Both the position numbers and the translations under genes were made by a program. Below are positions 59,597-64,000 of a stretch of DNA of 64,000 nucleotides, one piece after another. Where the stretch lies: positions 20,544-84,543 of the IMG/VR virus record IMGVR_UViG_3300030419_003252; one strand, written 5' to 3'. The notes under the pieces were generated by a model. It ran no database searches and was not told where the DNA came from. It saw only the letters and a program-made list of their open reading frames with translations. The stretch is from a virus. Positions within the stretch are counted from its first letter, which is position 1. The number at the start of each line of letters is the position of its first letter.

Positions 59597-59890
59597 GTGG
59601 GACCCGATTATCTGACACTTTTATTAACTGCTGTTATCTCTTCTATTACAGGAGGAGGATGGATAGCAAGTAAAGTTTTAGATAGACATCGAGAACGATT
59701 AAAAGACTCTATTCAAAATTTAGAAAATCAAAGAATGCGTATCAATGCATTGGAGGAACATGTGAATAGAATGCCTTTGGAATATGTTTTAAAAGTTGAT
59801 TTTGTTCGGGAACTACAAGATATGAACGATCACTTTAGAGCAATTCATAATAAGCTTGATAAGCTAATGGAAAAGCTTATAGAAAAATGA
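59597..59890 (+). CDS. Small membrane-anchored coiled-coil protein
   Basis: A 97-residue protein with a GTG start (MGPDYLTLLLTAVISSITGG). A membrane helix covers residues 6-27 and a coiled coil follows to about 75, then Lys/Glu-rich helices. I recall this type in cyanophages directly after terminase; an inner-membrane spanin-like or lysis role is possible. It overlaps the next gene in ATGA. Confidence 0.65.
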   Translation: MGPDYLTLLLTAVISSITGGGWIASKVLDRHRERLKDSIQNLENQRMRINALEEHVNRMPLEYVLKVDFVRELQDMNDHFRAIHNKLDKLMEKLIEK

Positions 59891-60657: not shown

Positions 60658-60804
60658 ATGAAAACAAAAAAGCTTATTAAACAAGCTATAAAAAATAAAA
60701 AGCTATTTTCACAAGAAGAATTACTTTACTTTAAAAAGTGGTTATATCTTAAGAAACAAGCGAAAGCTGCTAAAATCATTAAAAGGAAAGGGGTAAAAGA
60801 TTAA
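60658..60804 (+). CDS. Small Lys-rich protein before portal
   Basis: A 48-residue basic protein, MKTKKLIKQAIKNKKLFSQE then ELLYFKKWLYLKKQAKAAKI. It is probably one or two basic helices. The stop overlaps the portal start in TAATG. FSQEELLYFKKWLYLKKQ fits a small conserved type in cyanophage virion blocks. Function unknown. Confidence 0.6.
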   Translation: MKTKKLIKQAIKNKKLFSQEELLYFKKWLYLKKQAKAAKIIKRKGVKD

Positions 60805-63146
60805 TGGCTACCGACGCTAAGGCCCGTCTTAAAGAAATTATTGATTCTTATCTTGAAAGAGATGGAGGAGGAGGAATTGATACTGGTATCGTAGCGTCAC
60901 ATTTAGCACAAATGAGACTCTTTGGTATTAGACAAGGAGTTGAATTTTTTCCTGCTCAAGACAATTTTGGTAATCAAAGAAAAGATTATATTGATCGAAT
61001 TATTAAATATAATCAACTTGATTCAAGATTAGATTCAATTTGGGATTATTTTTTATGTGATGGTCAAGGATTATTTTATATAAGACCAACACAAAATAAT
61101 TATCGTTTATATTTCTTCCGTAAACACGAATATCGTAGTTATTACAATGTAGATGGAGAATTAGATGAAGTTGTAATTATCTATAGTTATAAAAAAAGAA
61201 GAGGATTAGGAGGAGAACAACCTATAGCTGATTCTTCTTTAACAGGTCAAGATCCACATAGTAAACATGGTAAAAAACATTACATTCGGATTTCAATTAA
61301 AAGAAAAGAAATAGTTGAAACACATTCAGAACATGAAATAAAATTTGAAGCTCCCTATCCATCTATGCCAGGGAAAACAAAAGAGTTAAAAAATACTTTA
61401 GGTTTTATTCCTTGTGTAGAAATTTTCAATAATCCAAAAGGTTTTTCTTCTGAAGGTTCTGGAGAATTTGATGCTTTAGCTAATCACATCTGTACTCATG
61501 ATGAGATTATGCAAACCATGAGAAAGAACGTTACTTTCTTTGGTAATCCAACTTTATTATCGTCAAGACCTAAAACTGATTTAGTAGAAGCAGGTGGGGA
61601 AGCAAGTGTTCAACGTCCCTCTATTGCAGCTAATTCAGGATTCGTTGGACTGGGACCTTTAAGTGCTTCCCGCTATAAATCTGATCCTGTGTCTCGTGGT
61701 GTAGATGGTCAAATACGAGTACCTAGAATTATTGCAAATCTAGAACCAAATGATCGTGTAGGTTATATCGTTCCTGATGCAATCACTGGAGATCAAAATG
61801 CATTTTCTCGTCAATATCGAGAAGAAATACGTACAGCTTTAGGTGGTGTTGATGAGTTATCTATATCAGCTGGAGTAACAGCTACTGAATATAAATCATT
61901 ATTTGGACGAGTTGCAGCTACATCTAAAAAGAAAGCAAAAGCTATTTACGATTATGGTCTTTGCCGTTGTTTAGAATTAATTATTTTCCAAGAAGAAAAG
62001 TTATTTAAAGAAACTCTTGCAGCCGCTGCTGGACTAGAAAAACCAATTGAATTACCTGATGGTGCAAGTGAAGAAGATAATTATGCTTATGAACAAGCTC
62101 AAGCAATGTTTGACCAACAAGTTAAAAATTTAATGATGGCTTGTTTGCAAACTGAGCAAATACCTCCAGGTGTTATTGGTTTAATTCCTGATGGTGATGT
62201 AACAATCCAATGGAGATGGATGGGGCCAGTTTATGAGGACTCAACTCAAGACGTATTAAATAATTCAATTGTTGTAAGAAACCTACAAGAATTAGGGGTA
62301 GATAGCATAGAAGCACTGAAATATCTCTTTCCGTCCAAGACGGATGAGGAAAGAGCAGCAATGCTTTCGGGGTTCCCATTCAGAATGGTGAACGAATTGC
62401 AGGGTGCATACTCTCAATTTGCCAAATTAGTGGGGGGAATGATGCAGACTCCTCACCCACAGTCACCCGACTTACCTATGGCAGCAGATCCACGCCTAGA
62501 TCTGACACCATATCTGTATCGAACACTCGAGGCGTTACAAAAGGAGATGAGTTATGCAGGACGCTACCGTCCAATCGACCCAACCGACGAGCCAAGCACC
62601 AGCAGCCGTCGCACCGAACAGCTACGTGGCGGCAGCTCCAGCAGCTCCACAGGCGGTTCCACAGGCACCAGCCCCATATCAAGTGGGTACGAGCTTCCCT
62701 CAAGCCGTTCCACAGGCGGTCCCCAGTTACCAATCAGCCCCTACTCAGTACGCCCCCCAATCCCAGACTCCATCTTCGGAGGCGGGCAATCCATGGGAGT
62801 CGGCGTTCAACAAGGTGGTAGGGGTCCTGAGCGCACCAGTCCAATCCCCGTTCCAGGGTCAACAGTCGCAGATACCGACTCAGTATTCCCAGGCCAACTA
62901 CGGACAACCCAGCGTCCAGGCTACGCCACAATCGGCTCCGCAGACTTGGCAACCCAGCCAGACATCATCGCCCAACTATTCCCAAACCTCTTCGACTCCT
63001 TCTCAAGAGCGGCTCGCAGAGATAGCCCAGGAAGTGGGGATGAGCAACGACAGCAGGGTAGTGATCGACGCGTTCGGGATAGAGGCTCCAGCGATACTAA
63101 ACCAGTACGCAGTAAATCTAGAAGGAATGCTCGACAACGCAGTTGA
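60804..63146 (+). CDS. Portal protein with long Ser/Pro/Gly/Arg-rich C-terminal tail
   Basis: A 780-residue protein. An N-terminal helical region, WDYFLCDGQGLFYIRPTQNN (about residue 76-95), KTKELKNTLGFIPCVEIFNN and a central region with VPRIIANLEPNDRVGYIVPD and REEIRTALGGVDELSISAGV fit portal (gp8/SPP1-like) proteins of tailed phages. From about residue 583 (62550) the tail turns to Ser, Gly, Thr, Pro and Arg with high-GC codons and overlaps another gene for 593 bases. A portal normally forms the dodecameric DNA channel at one capsid vertex. Confidence 0.8.
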   Translation: MATDAKARLKEIIDSYLERDGGGGIDTGIVASHLAQMRLFGIRQGVEFFPAQDNFGNQRKDYIDRIIKYNQLDSRLDSIWDYFLCDGQGLFYIRPTQNNYRLYFFRKHEYRSYYNVDGELDEVVIIYSYKKRRGLGGEQPIADSSLTGQDPHSKHGKKHYIRISIKRKEIVETHSEHEIKFEAPYPSMPGKTKELKNTLGFIPCVEIFNNPKGFSSEGSGEFDALANHICTHDEIMQTMRKNVTFFGNPTLLSSRPKTDLVEAGGEASVQRPSIAANSGFVGLGPLSASRYKSDPVSRGVDGQIRVPRIIANLEPNDRVGYIVPDAITGDQNAFSRQYREEIRTALGGVDELSISAGVTATEYKSLFGRVAATSKKKAKAIYDYGLCRCLELIIFQEEKLFKETLAAAAGLEKPIELPDGASEEDNYAYEQAQAMFDQQVKNLMMACLQTEQIPPGVIGLIPDGDVTIQWRWMGPVYEDSTQDVLNNSIVVRNLQELGVDSIEALKYLFPSKTDEERAAMLSGFPFRMVNELQGAYSQFAKLVGGMMQTPHPQSPDLPMAADPRLDLTPYLYRTLEALQKEMSYAGRYRPIDPTDEPSTSSRRTEQLRGGSSSSSTGGSTGTSPISSGYELPSSRSTGGPQLPISPYSVRPPIPDSIFGGGQSMGVGVQQGGRGPERTSPIPVPGSTVADTDSVFPGQLRTTQRPGYATIGSADLATQPDIIAQLFPNLFDSFSRAARRDSPGSGDEQRQQGSDRRVRDRGSSDTKPVRSKSRRNARQRS
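62542..62546 (+). promoter_or_regulatory. Shine-Dalgarno inside portal gene
   Basis: AGGAG 7 bases ahead of ATG 62554 (AAAGGAGATGAGTTATG) supports internal initiation of the overlapping gene. Confidence 0.65.
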
Positions 63147-63540
63147 GTGGGGAAATAGAGCAGCTGAAAATATTAAAGGTTTTGCAAATTTTGCTGTTCA
63201 GGAACATCAAGAGAATTTAGCTTATAACGAAATTCTTACAAATCCTGACGTTCTTAGTGATTACACTTTGAAGTTCTTCGGTCCAGAAGGCCCTCATCCT
63301 GTATATGAGAACACAGCTCAGTTAGAGACAAGAGGTTATCCAACACAACCTGTTCAAGGTCAGCAAGTTGGACAACAGACTCAAATGCCAGCTCCTCCAG
63401 CTGCTGCTGCTCCACAGCAACCAGAAAATTTCTGGGGTAGCTTCAATGAGCAAATGGCAAGAGATCCACAGAATGCTTGGAAGATTCTTAACCAAGCACA
63501 GCCAGGAACCGTACAAAATAAACTCTTTGTAATGGAGTAA
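62554..63540 (+). CDS. Putative scaffold/head-assembly protein overlapping portal
   Basis: A 328-residue protein. Its N-terminal 195 residues are Pro/Ala/Gln-rich and disordered (SQAPAAVAPNSYVAAAPAAP), and its C-terminal part has helical segments (LAEIAQEVGMSNDSRVVIDA) and NEILTNPDVLSDYTLKFFGP. The last element resembles the end of cyanophage scaffold-type proteins. A Pro/Gln-rich disordered N-terminus with a compact helical end suits a scaffold. The first 593 bases are also read as the portal tail in another frame. The 3' part is AT-rich like the rest of the genome. Confidence 0.65.
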   Translation: MQDATVQSTQPTSQAPAAVAPNSYVAAAPAAPQAVPQAPAPYQVGTSFPQAVPQAVPSYQSAPTQYAPQSQTPSSEAGNPWESAFNKVVGVLSAPVQSPFQGQQSQIPTQYSQANYGQPSVQATPQSAPQTWQPSQTSSPNYSQTSSTPSQERLAEIAQEVGMSNDSRVVIDAFGIEAPAILNQYAVNLEGMLDNAVEWGNRAAENIKGFANFAVQEHQENLAYNEILTNPDVLSDYTLKFFGPEGPHPVYENTAQLETRGYPTQPVQGQQVGQQTQMPAPPAAAAPQQPENFWGSFNEQMARDPQNAWKILNQAQPGTVQNKLFVME

Positions 63541-63544
63541 AGAT

Positions 63545-64000
63545 ATGAATCCTGCCTATTACAGATATGGCATCCCTACTCTCGGCGGCGCAGTCGTCGG
63601 AGGAGTAGGTGCTGCTCAAGATGGCGGTGATTTTGGAAATGTTCTTGGCGGTACTCTCCTTGGTGCTGGCATAGGTGCTGGTGCTGCAGGAGCCGCAAGA
63701 TCATTTGATGTTGCTGGCCCAGCTGCTGAAAGGATTGCTGGAAAGGTTTCAAAAGTAGGAAAAGGTGGAAGACAAAGTTCTCAAGATTTTCTTAACCGAC
63801 AAATCGCACAACTTTTAAATCAAACACCTGACTCTGAAATACGTAAAGCTGCTTTAATTCAAGCAGGTAGAGGCAGCAAAGCTGTATTTAATCCTTTAAT
63901 TGCAACTAGTGCAGGAGACGTTTCTGGGCTAGGAGCAACAGCTTTAGGAATGGGAGCAATGCTTCCTGCAGGGGCAATAGCTGGAGGTGTTGCTTCTATG
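63545..64000 (+). CDS. Gly/Ala-rich membrane-interacting virion protein, 3' end cut off
   Basis: At least 152 residues from the ATG at 63545 (MNPAYYRYGIPTLGGAVVGG) to the window edge, with GGAGTAAAG before the start. Gly/Ala-rich hydrophobic stretches (NVLGGTLLGAGIGAGAAGAA, and ALGMGAMLPAGAIAGGVASM at the edge) alternate with charged helices. The composition is that of phage ejection proteins, as for several genes at 50-53 kb. The gene runs out of the window. Confidence 0.6.
   Translation, partial: MNPAYYRYGIPTLGGAVVGGVGAAQDGGDFGNVLGGTLLGAGIGAGAAGAARSFDVAGPAAERIAGKVSKVGKGGRQSSQDFLNRQIAQLLNQTPDSEIRKAALIQAGRGSKAVFNPLIATSAGDVSGLGATALGMGAMLPAGAIAGGVASM

Follow-up and report, generated by a model that had tools for sequence, protein, structure and literature searches.

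A conserved out-of-frame overlap between a portal gene and a probable scaffold gene in S-EIV1-like tailed phages

The head genes of T7 and P-SSP7 are arranged in the order portal-scaffold-capsid (gp8-gp9-gp10). The gp8 and gp9 genes of T7 are separate and 99 nt apart; whereas those of P-SSP7 overlap by 1 nt. In the lambda C/Nu3 pair the scaffold is made from an internal start within the upstream head gene, in the same frame, so this pair is not dual-coding. Long out-of-frame overlaps were reported from the phiX174-type Microviridae, for which internal and terminal overlaps are known (PMC8227390). The typical overlap in DNA viruses (mainly dsDNA viruses) is short, with a median of 15.6 nt (IQR 8.5-61); overlaps that are long and out of frame tend to go with tiny genomes, whereas large dsDNA phages usually overlap by few bases (PMC8903798). 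The Synechococcus phage S-EIV1 (KJ410740) is the only isolate of the lineage analysed here, and the genus-level group including S-EIV1 represented 3.3% of the cyanophage content in one marine survey (PMC5332604).

The window, which means the whole stretch of DNA analysed, covers the last 64 kb, at the right-hand end, of a virus record of 84.5 kb. Its portal (74% identity to that of S-EIV1), gene 2 (68%) and terminase (73-83%) place the virus in the S-EIV1-like lineage. The portal ORF (60804-63146, 780 aa) and the next ORF, gene 2 (62554-63540, 328 aa), have exactly 593 nt in common, and gene 2 is read in the +1 frame relative to the portal (Table 1). The initial 197-198 codons of gene 2 overlap the portal tail, and its ATG follows AAAGGAG with a spacing of 7 nt. 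The original prediction, made from the letters of the window, had described two frames open for 593 bases, a second gene with its own AGGAG and ATG, and an extension of 394 bases past the portal, and the ORF coordinates agree with it on each point. S-EIV1 has a similar overlap (554 nt) with the same Shine-Dalgarno sequence and start; however, its GenBank gene 2 starts at 59863, after the portal stop at 59840, whereas the full ORF runs from 59287, so that its first 192 codons were missed. Unlike the lambda C/Nu3 pair, the window pair is dual-coding; and unlike phiX174, which has a small ssDNA genome, the window lineage consists of tailed dsDNA phages of about 80 kb.

Table 1. Features of the portal/gene 2 region, in window coordinates.
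Feature	Coordinates	Strand	Evidence
Predicted folded core of the portal, residues 1-583	60804..62553	+	phrog_20475; Foldseek portal matches
Portal core stretch with lowered synonymous variation (0.60) and raised GC3; no second frame	62290..62553	+	
Putative Shine-Dalgarno AAAGGAG for gene 2, within the portal gene	62540..62546	+	invariant codons CAA-AAG-GAG in the window's clade
C-terminal tail of the portal, rich in Ser, Gly, Arg and Pro and basic at its end; dual-coding (gene 2 in the other frame)	62554..63146	+	open in 234/235 homologues; net charge; dNN/dSN
Gene 2, probable scaffold, ATG start	62554..63540	+	alternative-frame constraint; between portal and major capsid protein in S-EIV1
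Gene 2 non-overlapping half, conserved region predicted to be helical	63147..63540	+	synonymous ratio 0.92; low-confidence helices

These two ORFs are very likely a genuine dual-coding pair, which comprises a portal with a disordered, basic-ended tail and a probable scaffold made from its own internal start, both probably used in the procapsid. The portal matched phrog_20475 (E=2e-283), a profile named only 'virion structural protein', and no sequence match to a known portal family was detected in Pfam or by hhalign against gp8 of T7 and P-SSP7. Its AF2 model is of low confidence (mean pLDDT 41). Phage portal or portal-tail structures made up the whole of the best 28 Foldseek matches of this model (best E 4e-5), and the eight matches with E < 0.001, obtained with a query of mean pLDDT 41, were all phage portals. 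The predicted fold thus supports the assignment of the upstream ORF as a phage portal, and the name 'portal' given to it in the original prediction is borne out at the confidence of that model.

No homologue of gene 2 was detected in PHROGs, Pfam or the PDB sequences, and hhalign against gp9 of T7 and P-SSP7 gave no match (probability below 1%). The gp8 and gp9 proteins of these phages thus have no sequence similarity to the window portal or gene 2, whereas the apparent gene order and the portal fold are alike. The gene order in S-EIV1 is terminase, three small genes, portal, gene 2, small gene and major capsid protein, the last of which matches the major head protein phrog_1357 (E=1.4e-19). 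In the structural model of gene 2, which is weak because it was run from a single sequence, the first half is largely disordered and low-confidence helices are predicted at residues 178-229 and 231-241. Three parts of gene 2 are conserved across clades: a motif encoded within the overlap, PWxx[AS][FY], which occurs in all but three sequences; the surroundings of FGxEAPxxLN; and a segment with WxxF in the C-terminal part. The gene order and the predicted structure suggest that gene 2 is probably a capsid scaffold. The original prediction had called it 'scaffold-like'; the position and the helical, partly disordered prediction fit this description, whereas homology does not back it. Gene 2 might instead encode another head protein (internal, decoration or ejection), which would be compatible with dual coding and agrees with the lack of homology to any scaffold and with the low confidence of the single-sequence model. 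This alternative is somewhat unlikely, since gene 2 occupies the scaffold position of T7 and P-SSP7, between the portal and the major capsid protein; its size, disordered N-terminal half and long helix also fit scaffolds, and its C-terminal segment is conserved.

Hundreds of relatives were collected from IMG/VR, and further scans seeded with progressively distant members added two more clades. One of them, seeded from a MAG titled Blastopirellula, is called marine here purely as a label; the other is referred to as the third clade. The portals of the marine and third clades are each about 45-50% identical to that of the window. The overlap was intact in 234 of the 235 distinct complete portal homologues from the three clades, with a length of 443-641 nt and a start at the homologous position; in the one remaining homologue (L108) a stop lies nine bases from the end of the contig. 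The original prediction had named portals ending near 62550, or stops in one frame of close relatives, as evidence that would count against it. Both came out negative, as no homologous portal ends near this position and the tail stop is limited to that one contig. The closest matches listed from the viral scans and one genome scan included no outgroup without the overlap.

The synonymous analysis of the window's clade used 53 non-redundant members, with values expressed relative to the portal core. The portal-frame synonymous variation was 1.00 up to about 62290, 0.60 from there to 62553, and 0.30 in the overlap; the gene 2 frame showed 0.47 in the overlap and 0.92 past the portal stop. The portal-frame ratio in the overlap was 0.47 in the marine clade and 0.55 in the third clade, where the drop falls exactly at the gene 2 start. 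Moreover, the fastest codon position shifts from portal position 3 to portal position 1 (equal to gene 2 position 3) in the window's and marine clades; whereas it stays at portal position 3 in the third clade, with a much smaller contrast.

Selection was estimated with a pairwise method modelled on OLGenie and written for this analysis; its values are approximate, since the sequence pairs are not independent, the SS sites of the core are saturated, and the intervals (in parentheses) reflect codon resampling only. In the window's clade, dSN fell from 1.27 in the core to 0.21 in the overlap. The alternative-frame (gene 2) dNN/dNS was 0.42 (0.35-0.51) in the overlap versus 1.15 in the core control, and the reference-frame (portal) dNN/dSN in the overlap was 0.76 (0.61-0.94). 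The corresponding reference and alternative ratios were 0.76 (0.65-0.88) and 0.64 (0.56-0.74) in the marine clade, and 0.75 (0.64-0.88) and 0.85 (0.71-1.00) in the third clade, in which the gene 2 signal is thus weak. For the last third of the portal tail, dNN/dSN was 1.38 (0.89-2.13), which indicates no amino-acid constraint by this ratio. Both frames therefore test as being under purifying selection at the sequence level, which is weaker for gene 2 in the third clade and, judged by ratio, not seen over the final third of the tail. The original prediction had expected that both frames are constrained and proposed synonymous-site analysis across relatives; the fall of the portal-frame variation to 0.30, 0.47 and 0.55 in the three clades is in line with it.

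The portal tail might be a tolerated, stop-free read-through with little or no function, which would leave gene 2 as the sole functional product of the overlap. In favour of this explanation, constraint is stronger on gene 2 than on the portal frame and, as given above, is not apparent by ratio in the final third of the tail; the tail identity (0.69) is also lower than that of the core (0.85). However, a tail of 147-213 aa is kept open in nearly all homologues, and the upper bounds of its dNN/dSN are 0.94, 0.88 and 0.88 in the window's, marine and third clades, respectively. The end of the tail is also basic, with a net charge of at least +3 over the final 30 aa in 99%, and a [PS][IL]PxPG motif occurs in most members of two clades. 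A tail without function is therefore considered quite improbable.

The start signals bear on a further alternative, in which programmed ribosomal frameshifting from the portal would produce a portal-gene 2 fusion and no independent protein. Members of the window's clade share the start context AAAAGGAGATGAGTTATG with little or no variation. The codons CAA-AAG-GAG at the Shine-Dalgarno sequence are invariant in this clade; whereas in the portal core AAG makes up only 34% of the Lys codons and GAG 30% of the Glu codons. The Shine-Dalgarno sequence is taken as working because of this synonymous constraint on two minority codons. The marine clade has AAGGAG followed by GTG, one codon downstream of the window-clade start and kept in nearly all members; the shift accompanies an Ala-to-Ser difference in the Tyr-[Ala/Ser]-Gly motif of the portal. 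The third clade has an ATG start without a clear Shine-Dalgarno sequence, which, together with the +1 frame of gene 2, would be compatible with frameshifting. The invariant Shine-Dalgarno sequence and start codon of the window's clade and the retained signals of the marine clade argue against it, and make a frameshift product very improbable.

The GC content of the window is 0.58-0.63 in the overlap, about 0.30-0.36 upstream and 0.40-0.51 downstream, and the rise begins about 250 bases 5' of the overlap (about 62300). The original prediction was right about the high GC of the overlap and the low GC upstream; the 35% that it gave for the downstream flank is too low. Among the relatives, the GC of the overlap is 0.55-0.72 while that of the core is 0.33-0.66 (regression slope 0.36), and the elevation is smaller in the GC-rich relatives. 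The raised GC thus follows from the dual coding of Pro/Ala/Gln and Ser/Gly/Arg/Pro stretches in an AT-rich genome. In single-genome shuffles with the portal residues fixed, the fraction with an open second frame was 0.35% when core codon usage was applied and 2.9% when the tail codons were permuted. Chance opening is thus only mildly improbable within one genome, and the case for dual coding rests on the comparison. Across the relatives, the 234 open frames out of 235 and the sharply reduced synonymous variation exclude chance as the source of the open second frame. A GC-rich, low-complexity insertion that created an accidental second frame, which the original prediction had offered as its alternative, would agree with the composition of the overlap, the low complexity of both overlapping stretches and a shuffle fraction of only 0.0035-0.029, but as a sufficient explanation it is refuted, because the start position is the same in three deep clades, among them genomes of 33% and 66% GC, and the synonymous constraint starts at the gene 2 start (third clade) and stops at the portal stop.

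For the dual-coding pair, the following mechanism may be proposed. The start of gene 2 coincides with the end of the conserved portal core, so that one stretch of DNA specifies both the portal tail and, in the +1 frame, the first half of gene 2, which is predicted to be disordered. Translation of gene 2 would begin at its own start codon, which in two of the three clades is preceded by a strong Shine-Dalgarno sequence. Some ribosomes would initiate gene 2 internally on the portal message, whereas others would read on to complete the portal tail. Such independent initiation could allow many copies of gene 2 product relative to the twelve portal subunits. The portal tail and the gene 2 product would both be used inside the procapsid, where the portal C-termini would meet the scaffold. 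In the P22 procapsid, the C-terminal barrel of the portal is unstructured and the scaffold contacts the portal wing (PMC12005531), and by this analogy a meeting of portal tail and scaffold is plausible. It is also possible, though rather doubtful, that the overlap serves as a functional lock, in which the tail and the N-terminal half of the scaffold, both disordered, interact as arms and so seed procapsid assembly at the portal vertex; if so, the assembly partners would be inseparable by recombination and would co-evolve base by base. As gene 2 starts at the end of the portal core, loss of an ancestral portal stop codon might be an attractive origin of the overlap. The codon usage of neither overlap frame correlates with that of the core (0.12 and -0.16, not significant), and the codon-usage genealogy gave no decision on which frame came first.

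The portal core just upstream of gene 2 (62290-62553) also showed a GC3 of 0.47 versus 0.13 further upstream, and its lowered synonymous variation is strong only in the window's clade. A third coding frame was rejected for this stretch, as every alternative frame carries stops. A conserved RNA structure was not convincing either: compensatory changes occurred in only 8 of its 67 pairs, and the covariation term was small. The stretch might act on gene 2 as a control element, at the RNA or DNA level. No excess of sigma-70-like promoters or terminators over shuffles was detected. A stop lies in frame two codons 5' of the gene 2 start (62548-62550) in nearly all members, and its codon pairs differ by clade; a role as a reinitiation signal was rejected, since the stop is missing from several members.

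Overlapping genes are already known; a deeply conserved, out-of-frame portal/scaffold overlap of 443-641 nt in tailed phages appears to be undescribed. No description of the portal/gene 2 overlap was found in the open-access full text, a scope which does not include the original S-EIV1 paper. Given the usual overlap of few bases in large dsDNA phages, it is of interest that two probable head-assembly genes share a stretch of this length throughout a lineage with hundreds of environmental members. The gene caller Prodigal allows same-strand overlaps of up to 60 bp (PMC2848648). Under such a cap in a standard gene caller, these genes would be truncated in metagenomic annotation, as gene 2 of S-EIV1 is in GenBank. 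The overlap may also provide a clean natural test of two disordered proteins evolving on one sequence, and both the portal tail and the N-terminus of the putative scaffold would be accessible to proteomics on an isolate.

Some other features of these genomes were observed. The S-EIV1 terminase (846 aa, KJ410740 54080-56620) has an insertion of ~330 residues (about 200-531), intein-like in size and place, which is absent from the 508-aa terminase of the window and from six relatives of its clade. The major capsid protein of S-EIV1 (KJ410740 60784-62010) is misannotated, with a minus-strand ORF (60784-61545) over its N-terminal half; on the plus strand, the ORF is open without interruption between about 60859 and 62010. 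In the window, the gene after gene 2 (63545-64000) is Gly/Ala-rich with glycine-zipper-like stretches and runs off the end of the record; it might encode an internal or membrane-active protein.
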